Assembly: GCF_000497445.1 (NCBI RefSeq)
Contig: NZ_CM002285.1
Location: forward strand, 9,068,033-9,107,477
DNA length: 39,445 nucleotides
Source: Streptomyces roseochromogenus subsp. oscitans DS 12.976
Lineage (GTDB): Bacteria; Actinomycetota; Actinomycetes; Streptomycetales; Streptomycetaceae
Direction of reading: 5' to 3'
Each line of letters begins with the position of its first letter. The first letter of the stretch is position 1. Below are positions 8,270-20,080 of the stretch, in pieces. The notes below the pieces were generated by a model. The model did not search any database and was not told where the DNA came from. It saw only the letters and a program-made list of their open reading frames with translations. The translations under genes were made by a program, and so were the position numbers.

Positions 8270-8649
8270 GACCCGGCGGACACTGACGACGGTGGCCGGT
8301 TCCCGGGGCGCGAGCCACGGGGACCGGTCGGCGGTGCTGTCGGTGATCCGGGCTGTGCTGGTGGACCAGGACAGCGCAGTCGGCTTCCTGGGCGAGGTCT
8401 TCGCCCAGGATCAGGCAGAGTTCTTCGACCTGATGGTGCAGCTTGCCGACTTCGCCGCCCTGTGTATGCAGTTCCGCGGCCGCGCGGCTGGGGCCGGGTG
8501 TGGGATCGGGTCGGCGGGCCCGCGTGGGCCGGCTCCGGGGCGCACCTCCGAGGACTGCCCTGGCCGCCGTTCTCGGCCTCGCCGCGGTCGTGTCTGACGT
8601 GAGAGAGGGCGGGATCGGTGTGAGACTGGGCATGGAAGGGGTGATCCGT
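8270..8649. other. Intergenic region with an unassigned open frame
   Basis: Between the mannosidase stop and the phosphatase start. A forward frame, 8292-8597, has strong third-position GC in its middle (AVLSVIRAVLVDQDSAVGFL and the acidic/hydrophobic stretch after it), but has no clear ribosome site and ends in Arg/Pro-rich noise. The reverse strand of the same segment also reads as a plausible helix (GEVGKLHHQVEEL), so the frame may mirror a relic coiled-coil gene. I recognise neither. Confidence 0.35.
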
Positions 8650-9858
8650 GTGTCGGACCCATCGCACGCGTCCTCCGGTCCCGACACCGCCGTCGACGAG
8701 AATCTGCTGGAAGAGCTGATCAGCGAGGCGCAGACGGCCCTGCCCTTCGAACTGCCCGACCTGGCCAACCGGTGCGCCTCGGCCCTCGGCCTGGACACCG
8801 CGTTGATCTACCTCGTCGACCTGCAGCAACAGCTGCTCATCCCACTCGACGAAGCCTTGGATTCGCTGCCGGTGGACCGCTCGTCGGCCGGCTGGGCGTA
8901 CCGCACGGTCTCCCCGCAGGTGGCCGCGGCCGATGACGGCCTGATCATCTGGATGCCGCTGGTCGACGGTTCGGAGCGGCTGGGCGTGCTGGCGGTACGG
9001 ACCGCCTCGCTCGACGAGATGCGGATGCGCCGCAGCCGGATGCTGGCCCATCTGTTCGCCATGCTGATCACCTCCAAGCGGGCTTACAGCGACTGGCTCG
9101 CCGCCCGCTCCCGCACCGCGCCCATGCAGTTGCCGGCCGAGATGCTGCGGGCTTTCCTGCCACCCCACACCGTCGGCAGCAGAAGGTGCGTCTCGACCGC
9201 GGTCCTGGAACCGGCGTACGACATCGCCGGCGACGCCTACGACCACTCGGTGGTCAAGAACGTGCTGCACACCATGATCCTCGACTCCATGGGGCACGAT
9301 CTGATCGCCGGCTTGACCACGTCGGTCGCCATGGCGGCGGCGCGCAACGCCCGCCGCGGCGGTGGCGGCCTGGCCGACGTCGTAGGCTCCGTCGACCGGG
9401 CGCTCGCCGAGTGGCTGCCCGACCACTTCTGCACCGGCGTGCTGTGCCGACTCGATGCCGAGACCGGGATGCTGCACTGGGTCAATTGCGGTCATCCGCC
9501 ACCGCTGCTCATCCGTGCCGAGCGGGTGCTCGCCGGGGCGCTGGACAGCCCCCCGCAGCCGCCGATCGGCCTGGCCGGCCCACTCGCCCCGGCAGCCCGG
9601 CAGGTCCACGAGACGAGACTGGAACCGGGTGACTGCGTCCTGCTCTACACCGACGGTGTCGTGGAGGCTCGCGACGCGGACGGTGCGGAGTTCGGCCTCG
9701 ACCGGTTCACCGACTTCATCATCCGCTCCCATGCCGCCGGCCAGCGCCCGGCCGAAGTGCTGCGGCTGCTCATCCACGCCATCCTCGATTACCAGCGCAA
9801 CCAACTGCGGGACGACGTGACCATCCTGCTCTTCGAATGGCGCCCGCAGCACCGGTGA
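8650..9858 (+). CDS. SpoIIE/PP2C-type serine phosphatase with N-terminal GAF-like domain
   Basis: Predicted PPM-family phosphatase of the SpoIIE/RsbU type, which normally dephosphorylates an anti-sigma-factor antagonist to switch on a sigma factor. The N-terminal ~190 residues (ELPDLANRCASALGLDTALIYLVDL... to MLITSKRAYSDWLAARS) look like a degenerate GAF sensor. The phosphatase domain follows: AYDIAGDAYDH in place of the common GGDWYD, MILDSMGHDLIAGL with the metal-binding Asp, VNCGHPPPLLI, VLLYTDGVVEARD and RDDVTILLFEW. GTG 8650 was chosen for GGAAGGGG (8634-8641) 8 nt upstream; ATG 8632 and GTG 8620 are in-frame alternatives. There is no HATPase domain, so its partner kinase is encoded elsewhere. 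It converges on the ABC importer operon. Confidence 0.88.
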   Translation: MSDPSHASSGPDTAVDENLLEELISEAQTALPFELPDLANRCASALGLDTALIYLVDLQQQLLIPLDEALDSLPVDRSSAGWAYRTVSPQVAAADDGLIIWMPLVDGSERLGVLAVRTASLDEMRMRRSRMLAHLFAMLITSKRAYSDWLAARSRTAPMQLPAEMLRAFLPPHTVGSRRCVSTAVLEPAYDIAGDAYDHSVVKNVLHTMILDSMGHDLIAGLTTSVAMAAARNARRGGGGLADVVGSVDRALAEWLPDHFCTGVLCRLDAETGMLHWVNCGHPPPLLIRAERVLAGALDSPPQPPIGLAGPLAPAARQVHETRLEPGDCVLLYTDGVVEARDADGAEFGLDRFTDFIIRSHAAGQRPAEVLRLLIHAILDYQRNQLRDDVTILLFEWRPQHR

Positions 9859-9928: not shown

Positions 9929-11092
9929 TCACTTGCCCCAGATCTTCCGGTACGCCTCTCGGTAGCCCGAGGGGTCCCAAGCGGTGGCCCCATCGCTGTT
10001 GGCCGCTGTGGAGATGTGCACGGGCGCGACATAACCGCTGGCCGGACGGCCGGAGAAGGCACGGTTGAACTCGTCGAGGATCTGCCAGCCCTGCAGCGAC
10101 AGCGGTTCGGGGACGGTGGCCGCCTGGTACTGCTCGCTGTTGATGCGCTGGAACGCGGACGGGTCGCCGTCGCCGGCGCCGATGTTGAAGGGCGGGCCGG
10201 AGCCTTTCTCCCCGGCCGAGCGGAAGGCGGGGGCGGCGTCGGCGAAGTACAGGTCGTTGATCGCGACGGAGTAGGTCCACCGGCTCCCGAAGCGGGAGAG
10301 AAGGACGGAGACCTCCCTGGGGGTACGGCTGCTCGCGTCCGGGATCGGGATGTTCTCGTACGCCAGCATCCGCACGCCTGCACAGGCGGCCAGCCCCTTC
10401 CTGATCAGCTCGGACTTGTGCTTGGCGAAGGGGATCGAGGCGTCGGTGAAGAGGACGACCCCGGCATCGCCGTGGGAGCGTGAGATGACCCACTGCGCGC
10501 TGATCGCGGCGACCTCGTCGACGTTGGTGGTGACGTTGGTGAAGAGCCTGGGTTTCACGCTGGGGCCGGGGGATGCGACCGCGTGCCAGCCGATCAGCGG
10601 GATGCGCGCGGCGGTGGCCGACGCGACTTGCTGGGAGGTGGAGTTGGGGTCGAAACCGCCGATGACGATGCCCGAGGGCCTGAGTGCGACCGCCTCGCTC
10701 AGCGCCGCCTGGATGCCGGCGGGGGTGCCCTCGCCGTCGATCACCCGGACGTTCCAGCCGATGACCCTCGCGGCCTCCTTCACGCCCTGCGCGACGCCCG
10801 CGACTCCTGGGTTGGTCATCGTCTGCGCGACGTAGACGATCGTCTTGCCGGACACCGCCGCGGAGCCACTGGTCGGCCCGTTCCAGGGGATCTCGGACTT
10901 CTCCGCCCGGGCGACGGCGGTCTGGGCCCTGGCCTGGGCGGCGGGGCAGCCGCCCGGACCGGCGGTGGAGACCCCGGGGCCGTTCGACGAGCCGCGTTCG
11001 CACCCTGCCAGGGCGCTCGCCGCTGCCAGCAGGGCGAGGGAGACGGATCGCACCTTGACGATGCCGGGGAGGGCCTTGCGGTTGCGGTGCAC
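9929..11092 (-). CDS. Sugar ABC transporter substrate-binding lipoprotein
   Basis: Extracellular solute-binding lipoprotein of the ribose/galactose type (Peripla_BP_4 group), delivering a sugar to the permease encoded just upstream. GTG start at 11092 with GAGGAG 6 nt before it. The N-terminus is a lipoprotein signal with lipobox LAGC (about residues 27-30). The body alternates beta strands and helices as in type I binding proteins: KTIVYVAQTMTNPGVAGVAQGVKEAA, GIVIGGFDPNS, IPLIGWHA, DAGVVLFTD, YSVAINDLYFADAAPAF and GWQILDEFNRAF. It is the last gene of a three-gene leftward operon (ATPase, permease, binding protein), 66 bp after the permease. The ligand cannot be read from sequence; no sugar kinase or isomerase lies nearby. 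Confidence 0.88.
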   Translation of the reverse strand: MHRNRKALPGIVKVRSVSLALLAAASALAGCERGSSNGPGVSTAGPGGCPAAQARAQTAVARAEKSEIPWNGPTSGSAAVSGKTIVYVAQTMTNPGVAGVAQGVKEAARVIGWNVRVIDGEGTPAGIQAALSEAVALRPSGIVIGGFDPNSTSQQVASATAARIPLIGWHAVASPGPSVKPRLFTNVTTNVDEVAAISAQWVISRSHGDAGVVLFTDASIPFAKHKSELIRKGLAACAGVRMLAYENIPIPDASSRTPREVSVLLSRFGSRWTYSVAINDLYFADAAPAFRSAGEKGSGPPFNIGAGDGDPSAFQRINSEQYQAATVPEPLSLQGWQILDEFNRAFSGRPASGYVAPVHISTAANSDGATAWDPSGYREAYRKIWGK

Positions 11093-11158: not shown

Positions 11159-12253
11159 TCAGGGAGGGGTGCCGGCCGTGCCACCGTCCGGTGCCGAGGA
11201 TGACGGCTCCGGGGGCGGGGTATGCGCGTCACGTGACGCGCCCGCCCCGGCGCGCAGGCGGCGGGCGGAGTAGCCGGCCAGGCCTACGGCGAGAAGGAGG
11301 GTGCCGCCGTGGAACAGGGGGATCGTCCAGAAGTCGGCGCCCATCTGGCCGATCCCGGTGAGGCCGACGGCGAGCACGGCGACGGCGACGAGCGTTCCCA
11401 GGGCGTTGGGGCGGCCGGGTTTCACCGCGGTGGAGCCGAGGAGAGCGCCGACGAACGCGGGCAGCAGATAGTCGAGGCCGACGCTGGGATTGCCGATCTG
11501 CTGCTGGGCCGCGAGCAGCACACCGGCGAAGCCGACGAGCAGTCCCGATGCGGTGAACGCGTAGACGGTGTACCTGCGGGTCGGAATGCCGACCAGGTCG
11601 GCGGCGCGCGGGTTCGAGCCGACGACGTAGAGGTACCGGCCGAGCGGAAGCCGCTCCAGCACCAGCCAGAGCGCGATGGCGAGGGCGAGCACGTAGAAGG
11701 CGGGAACCGGAAGGCCGAGGAACCTGGAGTCGTAGAGATCGGTGAAGGCGGCGGGGAGACCCTGCGGGCCGGGGACGATCCGTCCGCCGCCGGTGACCCA
11801 GCCGGTCACGGCGTACATCATGCCGCCCGTCCCGAGGGTGGCGATGAAGGAGTCGATCCGGCCGAACTCCACGACGACACCGTTGAGGGCGCCCACGACC
11901 ACCCCTCCGGCGATCACCACGAGGCAGGCCCACGGCCAGGGCCACCGCTCGTTGACGATGAGGTGCATCACCATGACGTGCGCCAGGCCGAGACCATAGC
12001 CGATGGAGAGGTCGAACGCGCCGGTCACGATGGGGACGGTGGCGGCGAGCGCGAGGACGGCGGGGATCGACTGGTCGGACAGGGTCGAGTCGACCGTGTC
12101 CCGCGTGGGAAATGTGCGCGGCAAGAGGAGGGAGAAGACCAGGAAGAGCAGAGCGGTGAGGGCCAGGAGGCCGTAGGTACTGACGAGTTGTCCGGCGTGG
12201 CCCCGTCGGTGCTGCCGGGACGGGGACGTGGAGGACGGGGGCGAGGCGCTCAT
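11159..12253 (-). CDS. Sugar ABC transporter permease (RbsC-like)
   Basis: Inner-membrane permease of the ribose-type ABC importer family (BPD_transp_2). The 364-residue product has a variable N-terminus (SASPPSSTSPSRQ) and about ten hydrophobic segments. Family cues are LALAATVPIVTGAFDLSIGY (the conserved TGGIDLS-like loop, here TGAFDLS), GALNGVVVEFGRIDSFIATLGT, GSNPRAADLVGIPTRRY, AFTASGLLVGFAGVLLAAQ and LLPAFVGALLGSTAV. Its ATG overlaps the stop of the ATPase gene by 4 bp (ATGA), showing translational coupling. The same frame is open further upstream but lies inside the ATPase gene, so I reject a longer start. Confidence 0.9.
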   Translation of the reverse strand: MSASPPSSTSPSRQHRRGHAGQLVSTYGLLALTALLFLVFSLLLPRTFPTRDTVDSTLSDQSIPAVLALAATVPIVTGAFDLSIGYGLGLAHVMVMHLIVNERWPWPWACLVVIAGGVVVGALNGVVVEFGRIDSFIATLGTGGMMYAVTGWVTGGGRIVPGPQGLPAAFTDLYDSRFLGLPVPAFYVLALAIALWLVLERLPLGRYLYVVGSNPRAADLVGIPTRRYTVYAFTASGLLVGFAGVLLAAQQQIGNPSVGLDYLLPAFVGALLGSTAVKPGRPNALGTLVAVAVLAVGLTGIGQMGADFWTIPLFHGGTLLLAVGLAGYSARRLRAGAGASRDAHTPPPEPSSSAPDGGTAGTPP

Positions 12254-13779
12254 GAGGTGGTCGCGGTTCCGGAGGGGGGCATGGCCGAGGCCGCCCGGGT
12301 CAGCCCGGCGACCGTGAGGGCCGGACCGCTCAGCTCGGCCGTCACGGACCCGTGGACGAACACCAGGGCGCGCCGGCACACGCCCGCGATCTCCTCGAAG
12401 TCCGTGGAGACGAGCAGCACCGCGAGGCCGGTGGCCAGTGCCTCGTCGAGCAGGCGGTAGATGGCGGCCTTGGCTCCGACGTCCACACTCGCGGTCGGTT
12501 CCTCCAGGATCAGCAGGCGCAGGCTCACCCGGAGCCACCGGCCGATCATGACCTTCTGCTGGTTTCCGCCGGACAGCGTGCCGATGGGGGCCTCGCTGTC
12601 ACGGGGACGCACCGAGAACCGTTCGATCAGGCGGGCGGCCTCGGCGCGTTCACGGCGGGGGGCGATCCAGTGCAGCGCCGGCAGGCCCCCGGCGCGCGGG
12701 TTGGCCAGGAGGTTCTCCCGTACGGTCAGCTCGGCGGCGCAGCCCTCGCGCTGTCGGTCCCCGGGCACGAAGCCGACACCGAGACGAACGGCGTGGGCGA
12801 CCGTGCGGGGCCGGTACGGCCGGCCGCCGAGGAGTGCCCGGCCGTCGAGGAAGGGCCGGGCACCGGCGAGAGCTCGGCCCAGGTCCATGTGCCCGGCGCC
12901 GGAGAGGCCCACCAGGCCGAGCACCTCGCCGGCTCTGAGTTCCAGGCCGACCGGTCCCGCGCCGGCGGTCCGTACGGCGTCGAGGGCCAGGAGCGCCGGG
13001 CCGTCGGCGGGGACGGTGGCGGGGCGGTAGTGCGCCGGTTCGTCGCCGACGATGTCTTGCACCAGACGGGCGGGGCTGTGGCCCGCCAGGGTGCCGTGGC
13101 TGACGAGGCGGCCGTCGCGCAGGACGGCGAAGGCGTCGGCGACCTTGTACACCTCGTCCAGACGGTGGCTGACGTAGAGGAGGCCATGCCCCTGGTCGCG
13201 CAGGGCGCGCAGCACGTGGAAGAGCCGGGTGCAGTCCGTTGCGGGCAGGCGCGCGGTCGGCTCGTCGAGGACGATGAGTTTCGCCTGGGCGGCCAGGGCT
13301 CGGGCGATGGCGACCAGTGAGCGCTCGGCGGGGGAGAGGCGGGCGATCGGCGTGGCGGGGTCGAGGTGCCCGGCGATGATCCGCAGCGCGCCGGTGCAGC
13401 GCTCCCGGGTGCGCTGCCAGGAGATGAGTCCGGCCCGGCGCTGATATCCGGTGCTCAGGGCGATGTTCTCGGCGACCGTCATCCACTCCACGAGGCCGAG
13501 GTCCTGGTGGATGAAGGACATGGCGCGGGAGGCGGCATGACTCCCGAGCGGGTGCCCGTCCACCGTGACCTGTCCCGCGTCGGCGTGGTGGACGCCGGCG
13601 AGCACCTTGATGAGTGTGGACTTTCCGGCTCCGTTGGGGCCGAGGAGGGCGAGGACGCTGCCCGCGTGGACGTCGAGGTCGACCCCGTCCAGGGCGAGGG
13701 TCCCGCCGAACCGCTTGGCCAGCCCGCGGATGCGGACCAGCGGTTCCGTGGAGGTGTCGGGAGGGTCGTGCACGGACAT
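12250..13779 (-). CDS. Sugar ABC transporter ATP-binding protein, two nucleotide-binding domains (RbsA/MglA-like)
   Basis: Cytoplasmic ATPase powering the sugar importer; 509 residues in two tandem ABC domains, the normal size for RbsA/MglA. Domain 1 (about 10-245) has Walker A GPNGAGKST, a divergent signature LSPAERS and Walker B LIVLDEPTARLP. Domain 2 (about 260-505) has the degenerate Walker A typical of this family (GLVGLSGAGHMDLGRAL), signature LSGGNQQKV and LLILEEPTASVDVGA. First gene of the leftward operon. Upstream, between this start and the stop of the preceding phosphatase gene, lies the AT-rich element at 13849-13874, also found before that phosphatase. The ATG at 13779 is clear and the first residues (SVHDPPDTSTEPLVRIRGL) lead straight into the domain. 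Confidence 0.92.
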   Translation of the reverse strand: MSVHDPPDTSTEPLVRIRGLAKRFGGTLALDGVDLDVHAGSVLALLGPNGAGKSTLIKVLAGVHHADAGQVTVDGHPLGSHAASRAMSFIHQDLGLVEWMTVAENIALSTGYQRRAGLISWQRTRERCTGALRIIAGHLDPATPIARLSPAERSLVAIARALAAQAKLIVLDEPTARLPATDCTRLFHVLRALRDQGHGLLYVSHRLDEVYKVADAFAVLRDGRLVSHGTLAGHSPARLVQDIVGDEPAHYRPATVPADGPALLALDAVRTAGAGPVGLELRAGEVLGLVGLSGAGHMDLGRALAGARPFLDGRALLGGRPYRPRTVAHAVRLGVGFVPGDRQREGCAAELTVRENLLANPRAGGLPALHWIAPRRERAEAARLIERFSVRPRDSEAPIGTLSGGNQQKVMIGRWLRVSLRLLILEEPTASVDVGAKAAIYRLLDEALATGLAVLLVSTDFEEIAGVCRRALVFVHGSVTAELSGPALTVAGLTRAASAMPPSGTATTS

Positions 13780-13848
13780 CTCCGAAGGTCGGCCTGGCGA
13801 GTCTTTCCCGACTGTTCGCCCTTGATCCTAGTGGGCCGATCCATGGCA

Positions 13849-13874
13849 TTTTGGATATTTCCTGCTTTATATGA
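13849..13874 (-). promoter_or_regulatory. AT-rich upstream element, copy A (before the sugar ABC operon)
   Basis: An AT-rich island in very GC-rich surroundings. On the forward strand it runs TTTTGGATATTTCCTG then CTTTATATGA. It is 21/26 identical to 16753-16778 and lies 69 nt upstream of the ATPase start. Probably a shared promoter or activator/repressor site; the exact role is not readable. Confidence 0.5.
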
Positions 13875-13903
13875 CCCCAATGGGTCAGCGGCGCCAGCCG
13901 GCC

Positions 13904-16738
13904 TCAGATGCCGTCGAGGCCGCATTCGGCCCAGATGACCTTGCCCTGAGGCAGGTAGCGCGTACCCCAGCTCTGTGCCAGCTGGGCGACGAGGAACAGG
14001 CCCCGGCCGCCCTCGTCAGTGCTGGCCGCCCGGCGCAGGTGCGGGGCGGTGTTGCTGGCGTCGGAGACCTCGCAGATCAGGGTGCGGCCGTGGAGCAGCC
14101 GTACATGGACGGGTCCGGAACCGTGCCGGATGGCGTTGGTGACCAGCTCGCTGAGGATCAGCTCCGCGGCGAACGCGGCTTCGCCGAGTCCCCAGTCGGC
14201 CAGCTGACGCACGGCGCAGGCGCGGACTTCGCCGACGAGGGCCGGGTCGGCCTGGAGGTCCCAGGAGGCGATCCGGTCGGTGTCCAGGGCGTGGGTGCGG
14301 GCTACGAGCAGGGCGATGTCGTCGCCGGGGTGGGCGGGCGCCACGGTGTTCAGGACCACCTGGCAGGTCTCCTCGGGCGTGCGTTCCGGGTGGGCCAGGG
14401 CCTCGCGCAACTGGTCGAGGACCCCGTCGACGTCGCGGTAGCGGTCCTCGATGAGTCCGTCGGTGTAGAGGACGAGCTGGCTGCCCTCGGGGAGGTCCAG
14501 CTCGACGGCTTCGAAGGGCAGGCCCCCGAGGCCGAGAGGAGGCCCGGCGGGCAGTTCGGGGAAGGACACCGTGCCGTCGGGGCGGACCAGCGCGGGGGGA
14601 GGATGCCCGGCGCGGGCCATGGTGCACTGCTGGGTGGTCGGGTCGTAGATGGCGTACAGGCAGGTCGCGCCGATGATGTCCGCTTCGTCGGCGGCTGGGT
14701 CCTCCCGGTCCAGGCGTCCGACCAGATTGTCGAGGTGAGTGAGGACCTCGTCCGGGGAGAAGTCGAGTTCGGCGAAGCTGCGTGCGGCGGTGCGCAGCCG
14801 TCCCATGGTGGCGGCGGAGAGCATGCCGTGGCCGACGACGTCCCCGACCATGAGGCCCACACGGGTGCCGGAGAGGGGGATGACGTCGTACCAGTCCCCG
14901 CCCACGTCGGATTCGGCGGGCAGGTAGCGGTGGGCGACCTCGACGGCGTCCTGGTCGGGCAGCCCCTGGGGGAGCAGGCTGCGCTGCAGCGCCAGGACCA
15001 TGGCGCGTTCACGTGTGTAGCGCCGGGCGTTGTCGATGGACAGGGCGGCACGGGTGGCGAGTTCCTGGGCCAGCGAACGGTCGTCGTCGCCGAAGGGGGC
15101 GCTGTGCTGTCCGCGGTAGAAGGCGGCGACGCCCAGGACGACACCGCGGGCCACCAGAGGGGCCGCGACGAGAGAGCGAACGTGAGCCAGCAGCTCCTCG
15201 GAGTGCTCGGGGTCGTGGGCGAGCCAGCCCGCGGCGACGCTGAGGTCCGGTTCCAGCACCGCCTCCCCGCTGGTCAGACAGCGCAGCTGCGGCGTGGCCG
15301 GGCCGTAGTCGACCTGCTTGCCGACCGGGTGGAAGGGGCAGTCGTCACGGATGCCGTGGACGACCGTACGGCGCAGGTCGCCGTGCGGGTCGCTGGACTC
15401 CTCTCCGCGCAGTGCGGCCTCGGGCAGGTCGATCGTGACGTAGTCGGCGAGTCGGGTCACCGCCGTCTCGGCCAGTTCCTGGGCGGTGCGGCGCACGTCC
15501 AGGGTGGTGCCGATACGCGTACTGGCCTCGGACAGCAGCTCCAGGCGGCGTCGTGCGGCGAGGGCGTACCGTCCCACCTCCGGCTCCCCCACGAGCAGCA
15601 GCCCTCTCGACGGCCGCGTGGAGGAAGGACGGGTGTCTCCCGCTCCGACGACGGTGACGCCCTTGTTGCCCACGGCCACCTGGCCGGGTGCTCCGACGGC
15701 GACGGACCCGGACGGCAGGACGTCACGGGAGGCGGCAGGCTCGGCGGGGGAGCCCGGCAACTCCTCGGTCTGCCGCGGGGTGATGAGGGGATCCGGTGGT
15801 GCGGGGCCGGGCAGGACGGCCTCGATGGCCAGGCCCTGCACCCCGGTGGCACTCGTCATCGGACGGCTCAGCAGCGTGATACACCGTCCGTCGGACAGGG
15901 GGACGCGGACAGCGGCCCGCTGCGCGCAGGAGATCAACTCGGTGGCTTTCTCCATGAGGAGCGCATGGTCACGGGGGTGCTGTCCGAGAGCCAGTTCGTC
16001 CAGCCCCATGGTGTGGTGACGGCCGACGACGGCTTCGGCTTCGGTGTCCAGGTAGGCCCGCAGCAGAGCGCGCTCGCGTGCGGAACTGTGGCTCAGCAGC
16101 CGCCGTTCGATGGCTCGAGCCGCCTTGCGTATCACGGTGGCCAGCGCGGGATGGTCGAAGCTGCGCGGATATCCGAAACACAGGACGCCCTCGATACGGC
16201 CGCTGAGCGGGTCGCGGACCGGAAGCGCGCGGCAGGCGCTTCCCTGAGAGCGCTCGGCGAAGTGCTCGGCACCGTAGACCCGGATGAGCTGCCGCTCCGC
16301 CAACGCGAGACCGATGCCGTTCGTGCCGGCGACCTGCTCGGAGAATACGAACCCCGGCACGCGCTGGATCGCCGGGAGGCTTCTCGCCAGGGACGGCTCT
16401 CCGAAACGACGCAGGAGGACCGTTCCACGCGCGTCGGCGACGCAGATGTTCATCTGACTGCCGGCGAAGCTGTACTGCAGCCGGTCGAGCACCGGCACGG
16501 CCGCGCGGATGATCCGTGCGTCCGTATCGAAATCCTCTTCGAAGGGGAGGTCGGACTGGTCCGGCGAGAGCCCGAGGGACCGGCAGCGCTGCCAGGAATT
16601 CGAGATGGGTGTGCGCACGCCCGCTTCGACCGGCTCACCCTCCAGAAATCGCTCACGCGAACGTACGGGCCCCGTGCCGTCTGGCGCACGTCCCGTCGGT
16701 GTCGGTGCCCCGCCGAACCGAACCACCCTTCGCCTCAC
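13904..16738 (-). CDS. Multidomain regulator: AcoR-type GAF, second GAF, SpoIIE phosphatase, HATPase anti-sigma kinase
   Basis: A 944-residue cytoplasmic regulator that joins a serine phosphatase and an anti-sigma-factor-type kinase in one chain. Residues about 45-220 match the sensor domain of AcoR/DhaR-type activators (ISNSWQRCRSLGL, GFVFSEQVAGTNGIGLAL, SACRALPVRDPLSGRIEGVL). A second GAF lies at about 400-585 (LLSEASTRIGTTLDV to ATRAALSIDNARRY). The PP2C domain (about 600-815) is complete: GGDWYDVIPL, GLMVGDVVGHG, ARAGHPPPALV, VLYTDGLIEDR and GDDIALLVART. The HATPase domain (about 825-944) has its N box (ILSELVTNAIRHGSG) and G box (DEGGRGLFLVAQLAQSWG). The GTG at 16738 leaves only 14 nt to the AT-rich element at 16753-16778, so the true start may lie further in. 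It likely senses a small metabolite and controls a sigma factor. Confidence 0.9.
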   Translation of the reverse strand: MRRRVVRFGGAPTPTGRAPDGTGPVRSRERFLEGEPVEAGVRTPISNSWQRCRSLGLSPDQSDLPFEEDFDTDARIIRAAVPVLDRLQYSFAGSQMNICVADARGTVLLRRFGEPSLARSLPAIQRVPGFVFSEQVAGTNGIGLALAERQLIRVYGAEHFAERSQGSACRALPVRDPLSGRIEGVLCFGYPRSFDHPALATVIRKAARAIERRLLSHSSARERALLRAYLDTEAEAVVGRHHTMGLDELALGQHPRDHALLMEKATELISCAQRAAVRVPLSDGRCITLLSRPMTSATGVQGLAIEAVLPGPAPPDPLITPRQTEELPGSPAEPAASRDVLPSGSVAVGAPGQVAVGNKGVTVVGAGDTRPSSTRPSRGLLLVGEPEVGRYALAARRRLELLSEASTRIGTTLDVRRTAQELAETAVTRLADYVTIDLPEAALRGEESSDPHGDLRRTVVHGIRDDCPFHPVGKQVDYGPATPQLRCLTSGEAVLEPDLSVAAGWLAHDPEHSEELLAHVRSLVAAPLVARGVVLGVAAFYRGQHSAPFGDDDRSLAQELATRAALSIDNARRYTRERAMVLALQRSLLPQGLPDQDAVEVAHRYLPAESDVGGDWYDVIPLSGTRVGLMVGDVVGHGMLSAATMGRLRTAARSFAELDFSPDEVLTHLDNLVGRLDREDPAADEADIIGATCLYAIYDPTTQQCTMARAGHPPPALVRPDGTVSFPELPAGPPLGLGGLPFEAVELDLPEGSQLVLYTDGLIEDRYRDVDGVLDQLREALAHPERTPEETCQVVLNTVAPAHPGDDIALLVARTHALDTDRIASWDLQADPALVGEVRACAVRQLADWGLGEAAFAAELILSELVTNAIRHGSGPVHVRLLHGRTLICEVSDASNTAPHLRRAASTDEGGRGLFLVAQLAQSWGTRYLPQGKVIWAECGLDGI

Positions 16739-16752
16739 TCGCGATAGTCCGT

Positions 16753-16778
16753 TTTTGGAAATTACCTGTCATATATGA
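16753..16778 (-). promoter_or_regulatory. AT-rich upstream element, copy B (before the multidomain phosphatase gene)
   Basis: Second copy of the 26-bp element: forward strand TTTTGGAAATTACCTG then TCATATATGA, where the last ten bases are a perfect palindrome. It differs from copy A (13849-13874) at five positions. It ends 14 nt before the annotated GTG of the phosphatase gene, so it overlaps that gene's promoter or leader. Confidence 0.5.
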
Positions 16779-16849
16779 GAATACGAAGTTTGGGGGCATT
16801 GGTCATGATGCGGCAGATTCATCATGTACATGACCGGTCGGGCCGGTTG

Positions 16850-17818
16850 TCACAGGACCGCCACCGGATTGACGGGCGACCCCGTCCCGCCCGGGACGTT
16901 CAGCGGCGCCACGACCAGCAGGAACTCATACCGCCCGGCCTCCGCGGTGGCGGCGGAGAGGGCTTCCAGATCGAGGTTGTCCAGCAGCGGGACCCCCATC
17001 GCGGCCATGGCCAGGGCATGGACCGGCGAGTGCACGCCCTCCACGGGCGAGGGCCGTACATCACTGTCGCCGTCGCCGCCCAGTAGCGCGATGCCACGCT
17101 CGGCGAGCAGCGGTACCGCGTCCACGTGGAAGCCCGCGCTCGCCGTGTCGGGGTCCCAGGCCCCGAGTTCCGTACGGCGCCGGACCTGCCCGGACCGCAG
17201 CAGCACCGCGTCTCCCTCGCCGATCGTCACATCGAGCGCCCTTTCCGCGGCGGTGATGTCCTGCGCGTGCACCGCTTGTCCCGGCTCCAGCCAGCGGATT
17301 CCGAGGACGGCGGGAAGGTCGAGGAGCACACCCCTGGTGATGAGGGGCCCGAGCGCCGACACTGCGCCGAAGCGGGCGCCCGCGGTGCCGACGACGTCGC
17401 CGGCCCTCCGGCCGTCGTAGAGCTGCCCCCTGTAGGCGATATGGCACAGGGCGTCGAGATGCGTGATGCCCTTGCCGTGGTAATCGGCGGCGATGAAGTC
17501 CTTGTGGGTCGAGGGTTCCGGGCTCTCCACGTCACCGAGATCGGTCATGTGGTGCAGAGCGGGCTTGCGGTTGCCGGGCCCGGGGCGGGTGTTCCAGGGC
17601 AGCGCCAACGGGACGACCGTGCCGGACCGCACTCCGGCCGTGGCCCGCCGTACATGGTCCGCGGTCACTCGGTTCCAGGCACCGCGGTCGGCCGGGTCCC
17701 AGCGACCCCATGTGCGGACCGCCTCGAAGAGCACGTCGAATTCCCGACGGGAGACGGCGGGCCCGTTGCCGGTAGCGGCTGATCCGGGATCGGGGGCATC
17801 GGCGGACTTCGAAGTCAT
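16850..17818 (-). CDS. Cyclase-family (kynurenine-formamidase-like) metal-dependent hydrolase
   Basis: Member of the putative cyclase family PF04199, which contains arylformamidases and isatin hydrolases acting on amide or lactam bonds with Zn or Mn. The 322-residue product carries the metal motif in the form YHGKGITHLDALCHI (about residues 100-115; family pattern HGxxxTHxDxxxH). RGVLLDLPAVLG, GDAVLLRSGQ and a C-terminal segment with GVHSPVHALAMAAMGVPLLDN follow. ATG at 17818. It is divergent from the PAS-GAF phosphatase at 18011, with a striking hairpin in between (17898-17941), and is followed in the same direction by the multidomain phosphatase 111 bp later. Substrate unknown: no tryptophan-pathway genes are near, so formamidase is only the family default. 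Confidence 0.85.
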   Translation of the reverse strand: MTSKSADAPDPGSAATGNGPAVSRREFDVLFEAVRTWGRWDPADRGAWNRVTADHVRRATAGVRSGTVVPLALPWNTRPGPGNRKPALHHMTDLGDVESPEPSTHKDFIAADYHGKGITHLDALCHIAYRGQLYDGRRAGDVVGTAGARFGAVSALGPLITRGVLLDLPAVLGIRWLEPGQAVHAQDITAAERALDVTIGEGDAVLLRSGQVRRRTELGAWDPDTASAGFHVDAVPLLAERGIALLGGDGDSDVRPSPVEGVHSPVHALAMAAMGVPLLDNLDLEALSAATAEAGRYEFLLVVAPLNVPGGTGSPVNPVAVL

Positions 17819-18010: not shown

Positions 18011-20080
18011 ATGGGCACGACGGACTCCTCCCGAGCAGTCGCCGGCCGGTCGGTGGCCGGCCCCGCCGCGCCGCCCAGTGGCCTGCTCGATCTGCTCAGC
18101 GTCGCCGCGGTGGTGCTGAACACGGCCGGCGAGGTGGTCTTCTGGAGTCCGAAGGCCGAGGAACTGTTCGGCTACACCGCGGCGGAAGCGCTGGGTCAGT
18201 CCGCAGCCCGGCTGACGGTCCACGAGGAGCACCGGGATGAGGTGACCAAACTCTTCGCCGAGATCATGGAATCCGGCACCGACTGGGCCGGGGTGTTCCC
18301 GATCCGGCACAAGGACGGCAGCACCCGCCTGGTGGAGTTCCGCAACATGCGGTTGCTGGACGACCTCGGTGACGTCTACGCCCTGGGGCTCGCCGCGGAT
18401 CAGGCCGCTGTGGAGCGGATCGAGCGAGATGCCGCCCTGGCCATGCGCCTGGTGTCCCAGTCCCCGGTCGGGCTCGCCATTCTCGACCCGGACCTACGGT
18501 ACGTGGCCGTGAATCCCGCTCTCGAACGCATCACCGGTCAGTCCGCGGCCGAGCGTCTGGGCCGACCGGTCGGCGAGGTCCTGACCTTCCTGGACACGGA
18601 CCCCGAGGCGCGTCTGCGCCGTGTCCTGGAGACGGGCGAGTCGGTCGTGGACCGGGACATCGTCTGCCGTCCCCCCGCCGACCCGGACCACGAGCATGCC
18701 TGGTCCGTCTCGTACTACCGGCTGGACGATTCCGGCGGGCGGGTGCTGGGCCTGGCCTATTCCGTCATCGACGTCACCGAGCGTCATCGAGCCGCTGCCG
18801 AGGCGGCACAGGCCCGGCAACGGCTGGCACTGATCGCCCAGGCCTCCGCCTGCGTGGGGTCCACCCTCGACCTGGAGACGACAGCGCGCGAGCTCGCCGA
18901 CGTCGTCGTGCCGGTCCTGGCCGATGTGGCCGCCGTGGACGTGCTCGACAGCGCCCTTGACGGCCGGACCGCGCCGAGCGAGGGACCGGCCCTCTTCCGC
19001 GCGCTTGCCGTGAGGGCGGCCCTCTCCACCGAGGCAGCCCGCGCGGCCGACCCGCCAGGTGGACTCGCCACCTACGGCAGTGACCGCCTGATCACCCGGT
19101 GCGTGCGCACCCGCCAACCGGTAATGGTGCCGCATACCACCCGTCGGGATCTGGAGCGCATCGCCCGCCATGGCGAGGCCGCCTCCCTCCTGGCGACGGC
19201 CGGCGTGCACTCCTATCTGGCCGTACCCCTGATGGCCCGGGGCGAAGTCCTCGGCGCCCTCGACCTCGTACGCACCCGGAACCCCGCTCCTTTCGATGAC
19301 GACGACGTGTTCCTCGCCCTGGAGTTGGCCGCCCGAGCCGCCGTCTGCATCGACAACGCCCGTGGATATCAGGCCCAGCGCCATGCGGCACTCACTCTCC
19401 AGCGCAGTATGCTTCCCCAGCTCACATCGCCCCTGCCGGGCTTGGAGGTTGCCTGCCGCTACCAGCCCGCCGGCGCCGCGAGTGAGATCGGCGGCGACTG
19501 GTACGACGCCATACCCCTGCGGGGAGACAAGACCGCCCTGGTCGTCGGGGACGTCATGGGCAGCGGCATCAACGCCGCCGCCACCATGGGTCAACTCCGC
19601 AGCGCTGCCCGCGCCTTCGCCGAACTCGATCTCGCCCCGGCCGAGGTTCTGTATCACCTCGGTCACCTGACCGAAGGGGTCGAGCAGGCCATCACCACCT
19701 GCATCTACTGCGTCTGCGACCCTCGCCGGGGCCAGTGCCGGATATGCCTCGCCGGACACCTGCCCCCGGCCCTGCTGCGTGTCGGCCACGCACCGCGGCT
19801 TCTCGACCTTCCCACCGGCGCACCGCTGGGCGTCGGCGGGGTCCCCTTCGAGGCCGCCACCATCGCCTTCCACCCCGGCGACGAGCTGGTTCTCTACACC
19901 GATGGCCTGGTCGAAACGCGGAGCGAACCCATCGACGCCCGCCTGGACACCCTGCTCGACGCCCTCGCGGCGACACGTGGCCATGACCTGGAGGAGACCT
20001 GCGACCGCGTCCTGGAGATTCTCCGCCCGCCCGGCGGCGAAGACGATGTCGCTCTGCTCATCGCCCGATCTCAGCCCTGA
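18011..20080 (+). CDS. PAS-PAS-GAF-SpoIIE serine phosphatase
   Basis: Cytoplasmic sensor phosphatase, 689 residues, predicted to act in a partner-switching cascade. PAS 1 covers about 25-130 (VAAVVLNTAGEVVFWSPKAEELFGY); PAS 2 about 145-260 (SPVGLAILDPDLRYVAVNPALERITG ending in VIDVTERHR); a GAF domain follows at about 275-450 (LIAQASACVGSTLDLETTA to LAARAAVCIDNARGY). The PP2C core at about 460-685 is intact: GGDWYDAIPLRGDKTALVVGDVMGSGINAAATMG, LAGHLPPALL, LVLYTDGLVETR and EDDVALLIARS. There is no HATPase domain. GGAGG at 17995-17999 lies 11 nt before the ATG. It ends just before a convergent broken SpoIIE-HATPase gene. Similar domain pattern to 13904-16738 but a different sensor set. Confidence 0.93.
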   Translation: MGTTDSSRAVAGRSVAGPAAPPSGLLDLLSVAAVVLNTAGEVVFWSPKAEELFGYTAAEALGQSAARLTVHEEHRDEVTKLFAEIMESGTDWAGVFPIRHKDGSTRLVEFRNMRLLDDLGDVYALGLAADQAAVERIERDAALAMRLVSQSPVGLAILDPDLRYVAVNPALERITGQSAAERLGRPVGEVLTFLDTDPEARLRRVLETGESVVDRDIVCRPPADPDHEHAWSVSYYRLDDSGGRVLGLAYSVIDVTERHRAAAEAAQARQRLALIAQASACVGSTLDLETTARELADVVVPVLADVAAVDVLDSALDGRTAPSEGPALFRALAVRAALSTEAARAADPPGGLATYGSDRLITRCVRTRQPVMVPHTTRRDLERIARHGEAASLLATAGVHSYLAVPLMARGEVLGALDLVRTRNPAPFDDDDVFLALELAARAAVCIDNARGYQAQRHAALTLQRSMLPQLTSPLPGLEVACRYQPAGAASEIGGDWYDAIPLRGDKTALVVGDVMGSGINAAATMGQLRSAARAFAELDLAPAEVLYHLGHLTEGVEQAITTCIYCVCDPRRGQCRICLAGHLPPALLRVGHAPRLLDLPTGAPLGVGGVPFEAATIAFHPGDELVLYTDGLVETRSEPIDARLDTLLDALAATRGHDLEETCDRVLEILRPPGGEDDVALLIARSQP

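Follow-up and report, generated by a model that had tools for sequence, protein, structure and literature searches.

To our knowledge, Streptomyces genomes encode many SpoIIE-type phosphatases whose signals are unknown. Operators for dimeric repressors that are shared by adjacent operons are a general theme in bacteria. The subject here is a pair of neighbouring promoters in a 39,445-nucleotide (nt) stretch of Streptomyces roseochromogenus subsp. oscitans DS 12.976 (NZ_CM002285.1, positions 9,068,033 to 9,107,477 of the forward strand; the whole stretch is called the window), one in front of a gene for a GAF/GAF/SpoIIE/HATPase protein, hereafter the phosphatase, and the other in front of genes for a sugar-type ABC importer. 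An original prediction, made from the letters of the window, had pointed to two similar 26-base-pair (bp) elements, copy A upstream of the importer genes and copy B upstream of the phosphatase gene, and proposed that one regulator or sigma factor serves both. Comparison with related loci makes it fairly probable that both promoters carry a predicted operator for one homodimeric DNA-binding regulator, which would most likely block RNA polymerase at both; taken separately, the shared operator is likely and repression is probable.

Like shared operators of dimeric repressors described elsewhere, the site is a short dyad that lies over the -35 region or the transcription start (+1) of two neighbouring promoters and is conserved in relatives, but the loci have no regulator gene in common among the gene families present in at least 8 of 81. 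The phosphatase resembles the SpoIIE/HATPase fusion Rv1364c (3ke6) in joining phosphatase and kinase-like domains in a single chain, but its N-terminal region is DhaR-sensor-like, and partner switching is here predicted from the domains. The importer shares with ribose/xylose-type ABC importers a double-ABC ATPase, a BPD_transp_2 permease and a Peripla_BP_4 binding protein, but all the NCBIfam matches listed for its proteins (for the ATPase, 25 of 188 matches are listed) fall below the curated cut-offs. General promoters of S. coelicolor have the boxes TANNNT at -10 and NTGACC at -35 (PMC4895711), and HrdB promoters have TANNNT and NTGACC (PMC6344877). The phosphatase promoter, which is ATGACC-N17-TATTCT in the window, and the -10 box of the importer promoter, TAGGAT, are of this kind and may be bound by HrdB, but the importer promoter has no clear -35 box and the operator occupies that place.

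Titles and opening lines of abstracts retrieved with the perfect dyad forms mention no bacterial operator, those from wider searches mention nothing on this locus, and a search for Streptomyces with SpoIIE, AcoR and GAF gave no match. A conserved predicted operator that ties one SpoIIE-type phosphatase to an importer would offer a testable handle on the signal that is sensed, and the operator DNA could be used as bait for fishing out the regulator.

A shared dyad in the phosphatase and importer promoters

Related loci (labelled L) were fetched by the N-terminus of the phosphatase, and the best 80 of 151 were used. Four of the 80 (L062, L068, L080 and L081) had no phosphatase start and three (L020, L040 and L062) no importer start, and none of these was taken into the respective set. 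The window itself is included in the 77-, 78- and 75-sequence sets and in the set of 46 phosphatase-promoter rows; its own genome is 9.78 Mb. The main clade consists of phosphatase upstream regions with a -10-like pattern, such that 31 of 77 regions (window included in the 77) were set aside. Five importer rows were dropped as misaligned (L026, L034, L037, L041 and L043) and three more were excluded because a gap or a short flank affected the centre, so that 36 of the 44 remained in use.

The shared site is a dyad of about 11 to 13 bp with a one-base centre, approximately AATGYC-N-GAWAT and more loosely ATRYC-N-GRYAT. The form in the phosphatase promoter is AATGYC-N-GATAT and that in the importer promoter is AATGYC-N-GAAAT. 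Only 13 and 15 of 2000 column permutations were as symmetrical as the two blocks, which is the symmetry sought in the operator of a homodimer.

The blocks and matrices used for the per-locus shuffles, the column permutations and the rankings over 73 and 42 loci were chosen after the alignments had been viewed. To remove this choice, a test was made in which each 14-column window of one aligned promoter, in steps of three columns, was slid over the whole loci, with 29 thinned loci and with the window's own genome and L003 excluded from the matrices and from the loci tested. The importer block AATGTCTGAAATGT, the peak of 22 windows, ranks the phosphatase promoter as its first off-site match in 18 of 29 loci and among its top four in 27, out of up to about 42,000 positions per locus. 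The importer windows that overlap this peak follow with 15/24, 7/13, 3/9, 1/8, 3/9 and 5/15 loci (first/top four), and those clear of it reach at most 5 first and 7 top-four placings. In the other direction, the phosphatase block CAATGTCAGATATT, the peak of 30 windows, gives the importer promoter first place in 10 of 29 loci and a top-four place in 20. Four phosphatase windows just downstream, which reach over ATATTTCCGAAA, give 5 to 10 first and 7 to 13 top-four placings, and the remaining ones at most 2 and 7.

Rankings were also made over larger sets. With the phosphatase matrix, trained without the window's own genome and L003, the importer promoter is the first off-site match in 24 of 73 loci and in the top four in 35; L003 is among the loci tested. 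Within the main clade the counts are 18 and 27 of 42, with none of 120 permuted matrices as good (means of 2.1 first and 5.9 top four). For the importer matrix, the phosphatase promoter comes out on top in 24 of 42 main-clade loci and within the top four in 40, again with 0 of 120 permuted matrices as good (means of 3.9 and 10.3). Reversed matrices give a single first placing of 42 each way. Column permutations of matrices of various lengths, on either strand, were as good in 0 to 175 of 1000 cases, and for the short matrices in 2 and 0 cases with the phosphatase matrix and in 0 and 13 with the importer matrix; in the thinning for these permutations, gaps in common scored as identity, and 18 and 9 sequences remained, with the window eligible.

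In the window, the predicted operator cores are the following.

16762..16772, minus strand: predicted operator core of the phosphatase promoter, centre 16767 (about +5), two mismatches to ATRYC-N-GRYAT
13848..13858, minus strand: predicted operator core of the importer promoter, centre 13853 (about -35), two mismatches to ATRYC-N-GRYAT

The phosphatase matrix used here was trained without the window and L003. Over both strands of the 39 kb, the phosphatase matrix ranks copy B first (16758-16773) and copy A second (13847-13862), the latter match being read on the plus strand. The importer matrix ranks 13847-13860 first. Both elements are picked out by the matrices, but their exact register is ambiguous, above all for copy A.

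Several results weigh against a shared operator. Within the window, the importer matrix places copy B (16760-16773, plus strand) only sixth, and a palindromised matrix ranks copy B first but prefers another register in copy A (13856-13870). Set against each other, the two predicted cores agree at only 5 of 21 positions directly and 8 of 21 inverted. The best match of AATGYCNGAWAT near copy A has the register of the original prediction, with two mismatches, and its best matches near copy B, with three, lie off the predicted core. Across loci, kinship means that the counts are not independent, and no coevolution signal between the two promoters was found in 75 genomes. Although the site is present in both promoters across relatives, it is weaker outside the main clade, with top-four placings in 16 of 31 loci (importer matrix) and 8 of 31 (phosphatase matrix). 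A first all-against-all comparison of matrices gave moderate support, with 0 to 8 of 200 shuffles reaching the observed value depending on width and orientation. The signal from per-locus promoter shuffles is modest: P<0.05 in 11 of 46 loci on the same strand and 6 of 46 on the opposite strand for the importer matrix, and in 6 and 15 of 39 for the phosphatase matrix. Some choices of strand and length in the column permutations were unremarkable (70 and 175 of 1000). Finally, no linked regulator common to the loci was found among gene families present in at least 8 of 81 loci, a search that did not cover rarer or unlinked genes.

These points bear on the possibility that two AT-rich promoter regions are alike by chance, in the window and in relatives. 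AT-rich promoters do resemble each other, the 26-bp form is unconserved, the whole window had been searched by eye, and the per-locus shuffles are modest as given. However, neither local shuffles of the 26-bp match nor whole-locus column permutations reproduce the likeness, and good cross-detection is limited to windows over or next to the site, making a chance likeness quite improbable. Lsr2-like nucleoid proteins silence AT-rich DNA, and both stretches are AT-rich in DNA of 70% GC; they could be sites of such a protein with no specific dimer site. The signal hinges on column order, dyad symmetry and fixed spacing, beyond AT content, so that silencing of this sort is extremely improbable as the explanation.

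Position of the site and predicted regulation

The promoter boxes of the window are as follows.

16778..16783, minus strand: -10 box TATTCT of the phosphatase promoter
16801..16806, minus strand: -35 box ATGACC of the phosphatase promoter, with a 17-nt spacer
13825..13830, minus strand: -10 box TAGGAT of the importer promoter

With the first base of the -10 box numbered -12 and the last -7, transcription starts can be estimated from the boxes, and the site would then be centred at about +5 in the phosphatase promoter and at about -35 in the importer promoter. A TAT-type -10 box lies upstream of the phosphatase gene in 46 of 77 regions by the selection used, such that its presence in these 46 is by construction but its spacing is not. 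The distance from TAnnnT to the site centre is 10 nt in 44 of the 46, and xTGACx precedes the -10 box at a spacer of exactly 17 nt in 34. In the importer promoter, TAnnnT starts 23 nt past the site centre in 30 of 36 rows, and inspection of the alignment, with no count made, gave no obvious -35 hexamer apart from the operator. A pattern for the whole promoter, boxes plus site, was found among 61 genomes in the window's own genome only.

The original prediction suggested a candidate nutrient-responsive sigma circuit. In such a circuit, the phosphatase pathway would set free a single alternative sigma factor that recognises the shared element. A SpoIIE-type phosphatase whose HATPase domain resembles an anti-sigma kinase is indeed encoded in the upstream operon. 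A sigma recognition element would occupy one and the same place with respect to the -10 box or start in both promoters, but the centres of the site differ, at about +5 and about -35. Both promoters have TAnnnT, and in 34 of 46 rows of the phosphatase promoter a 17-nt spacer separates it from xTGACx, as in the general Streptomyces pattern (PMC4895711). Therefore, with differing site positions and ordinary -10 boxes, a repressor fits and a dedicated sigma factor is disfavoured; the sigma circuit finds no support and is very unlikely.

A dimer would be bound at about +5 in the phosphatase promoter and at about -35 in the importer promoter. Given these positions, the bound dimer would most likely block RNA polymerase at both, by steric repression. 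Repression of the phosphatase and the importer might be lifted at the same time, with the imported compound or one of its products as a conceivable inducer. Activator-dependent promoters often lack a -35 hexamer, and the importer promoter shows no clear one apart from the operator by inspection, such that an activator or dual regulator could activate the importer genes from the -35 region and repress the phosphatase gene. However, a site with its centre at -35 tends to hinder transcription rather than aid it, and a site at +5 can hardly activate. Position alone is not decisive, and an activator or dual regulator of this kind is unlikely.

Under the preferred repressor model, the regulator could be an unlinked protein of any family. 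In 9 of 81 loci, a MarR-type regulator gene (Pfam; L014 552-1004 and homologues) adjoins an ABC exporter some 8 kb away from the phosphatase gene. The window's locus is not among the nine, and the family was excluded as a common linked regulator on account of its count and its absence from the window's neighbourhood. A tentative extension, possible but not favoured, is that an unlinked and undescribed Streptomyces regulator co-represses the DhaR-like sensor phosphatase, the importer and some small secreted proteins via ATRYC-N-GRYAT, such that nutrient import and partner-switching signalling would be switched on together.

The 26-bp resemblance

The resemblance that drew attention to the locus concerns two elements.

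16753..16778, minus strand: copy B, 26-bp element that covers the last base of the -10 box and spans the predicted transcription start
13849..13874, minus strand: copy A, 26-bp element that lies upstream of the importer -10 box

Direct alignment confirms identity at 21 of 26 positions, and both copies have the same orientation relative to their downstream minus-strand genes. By inspection, the outer part of copy B, TCATATATGA, is the perfect palindrome that had been described. The placement on the promoters differs, given that copy B begins at the last -10 base and copy A lies upstream of the -10 box. Duplication of a larger segment was rejected, since the flanks of A and B do not match. Dinucleotide shuffles never reached 21 matches, whether of the local flanks (0 of 3000, maximum 20), the intergenic regions (0 of 1500, maximum 19) or 40-nt cores (0 of 5000, maximum 20); these figures are local and uncorrected for the choice of the pair by eye from the whole window. 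At up to three mismatches, the joint pattern of A and B occurs in the own genome in just these two places and in none of 99 sampled relatives, of which the share that holds the locus was not established. The 16-base core of copy B, at up to three mismatches, finds itself, copy A (two mismatches) and one other place, compared to three places for its reversed control.

Conservation of the long form is limited. Beyond the own genome it is found only in the closest relative of the set, at 18 of 26 positions, and only L003 and L004 among the 80 loci come within six mismatches of the joint pattern. The weighted similarity of the two promoters averages 13.0 for pairs from one genome and 13.1 across species (75 genomes), and the own pair ranks first in only four of the 75 (the window, L003, L008 and L021). 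Agreement with copy A and with its flanks (of 26 and of 109 positions) is 24 and 100 in L003, 17 and 92 in L005, 20 and 74 in L004, 12 and 92 in L006, 14 and 95 in L042, 15 and 87 in L046, and 16 and 84 in L007, such that copy A is less conserved than its own flanks in five of seven near relatives. For copy B (of 26 and of 89) the values are 22 and 72 in L003, 15 and 62 in L005, 19 and 61 in L004, 19 and 61 in L006, 19 and 63 in L042, 19 and 49 in L046, 20 and 57 in L020, and 11 and 62 in L007, and it is conserved at least as well as its flanks in six of eight.

The 26-bp element was rejected as a conserved unit because it is lost in relatives, its own-pair similarity equals that across species and copy A falls behind its flanks in five of seven near relatives. 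Its loss where both genes are kept was the outcome named beforehand as refuting it. The long resemblance is, judging from the sequences, a lineage-specific, degenerate version of the shorter conserved site. By inspection, the long direct match possibly arises from the near-palindromic GGWAATWTCC together with A/T runs that flank both copies. The proposal that one regulator serves both promoters is supported by the shorter dyad conserved in relatives, and not by the 26-bp element; the eye had probably caught a real shared control site in its degenerate, lineage-specific form. A resemblance within a single genome can flag a real site yet give the wrong length and, probably, the wrong register.

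Further sites and genes of the locus

Pattern scans were extended to genomes picked by hand, partly for good sites at their loci. The pattern ATDYCNGRYATTT has 34 places in 12 genomes, compared to 4 for its reversed control, and AATGYCNGAWAT has 42 places in 21 genomes, compared to 2. Since TTTA, part of the reversed pattern, is seldom seen in GC-rich coding DNA such as this, the control is imperfect. By context, 11 of the 42 places are at the two promoters and a twelfth is presumed to be. Taken as a search for a regulon, the scans brought up a single recurrent promoter; the many other places are unrelated, and some are start-codon coincidences (ATG-TCN-GAY-AT). No sigma or anti-sigma gene sets were recognised downstream of further sites, with contexts read by eye from first residues and no family searches made.

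The recurrent place lies about 72 nt upstream of a gene for a small secreted protein (MRKTRKTAV...), in the own genome and others. The promoter is at 1515-1600 in L176 and near 155087 of C1 in the own genome, and the protein belongs to a multi-copy family with 8 matches in the own genome. A dyad of the same kind is found in six such promoters from six genomes (L179, L181, L182, L141, L147 and L175), and these promoters vary where one consensus form or the other is degenerate. A query of 16 loci yielded seven promoters, of which four match the motif and a fifth, in L181, has ATATC-G-GGTATTT by inspection; family members L185 and L186 do not match. The secreted-protein promoter is a possible third target.

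The genes of the locus, in minus-strand order, are as follows.

16850..17818, minus strand: cyclase-family gene upstream of the phosphatase gene, with a match in 60 of 80 related loci
13904..16726, minus strand: GAF/GAF/SpoIIE/HATPase protein with a DhaR-like N-terminal region, start at GTG 16726 or GTG 16738
12250..13773, minus strand: ATPase of a sugar-type ABC importer, with two ABC domains, start probably at GTG 13773
11159..12259, minus strand: importer permease (BPD_transp_2), start taken by inspection
9929..11092, minus strand: substrate-binding protein (Peripla_BP_4; weakly ribose-binding-protein-like)

Domain matches bear out the labels of sugar importer and sensor phosphatase at the level of families. 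One operon holds a double ABC ATPase, a permease and a sugar-binding protein, matched in 79, 75 and 75 of 80 related loci. The phosphatase joins a SpoIIE domain to a HATPase domain, as looked for in partner switching, and its N-terminal region resembles the sensor part of DhaR. Its start corresponds to GTG at 16726 in 52 of 77 sequences and to GTG at 16738, in the same frame, in 40 of 77; by inspection, a one-base deletion puts the upstream GTG out of frame in six homologues (L032, L033, L035, L038, L047 and L052). The start of the importer ATPase corresponds to GTG at 13773 in 56 of 78, compared to ATG at 13779 in 21 of 78. The alignments make GTG 16726 and GTG 13773 the likely starts. Therefore, the elements do lie upstream of both genes, but at gaps of about 26 and 75 nt rather than the 14 and 69 nt first reported.

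Between the operons there is one further repeat.

13872..13887, minus strand: perfect inverted repeat TGACCC-ATTG-GGGTCA, which overlaps the first 3 bases of copy A

TGACCC-N4-GGGTCA was tried as a shared operator with no result: it occurs in the gaps between the operons in 12 of 77 cases at up to one mismatch and 30 of 77 at up to three, and in a single place in the own genome at up to one. The 5' leader of the importer operon (13774-13813, about 40 nt, of the type AGTCGGGAAGAACTCGCCAGGCCGACCCCCGGAG) is apparently the best-conserved non-coding stretch between the operons, and its pattern occurs once in the own genome. The window, leader included, has no match to Rfam at gathering scores, and the leader gave no convincing fold (53 of 78 sequences aligned; consensus of -2.1 with three pairs).

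Two further genes for SpoIIE-type phosphatases flank the locus on the plus strand. That at 8443-9858 is convergent with the binding-protein gene. That at 18011-20080 encodes PAS, PAS and GAF domains, and 11 of 81 loci, that of the window among them, contain a member of its family.

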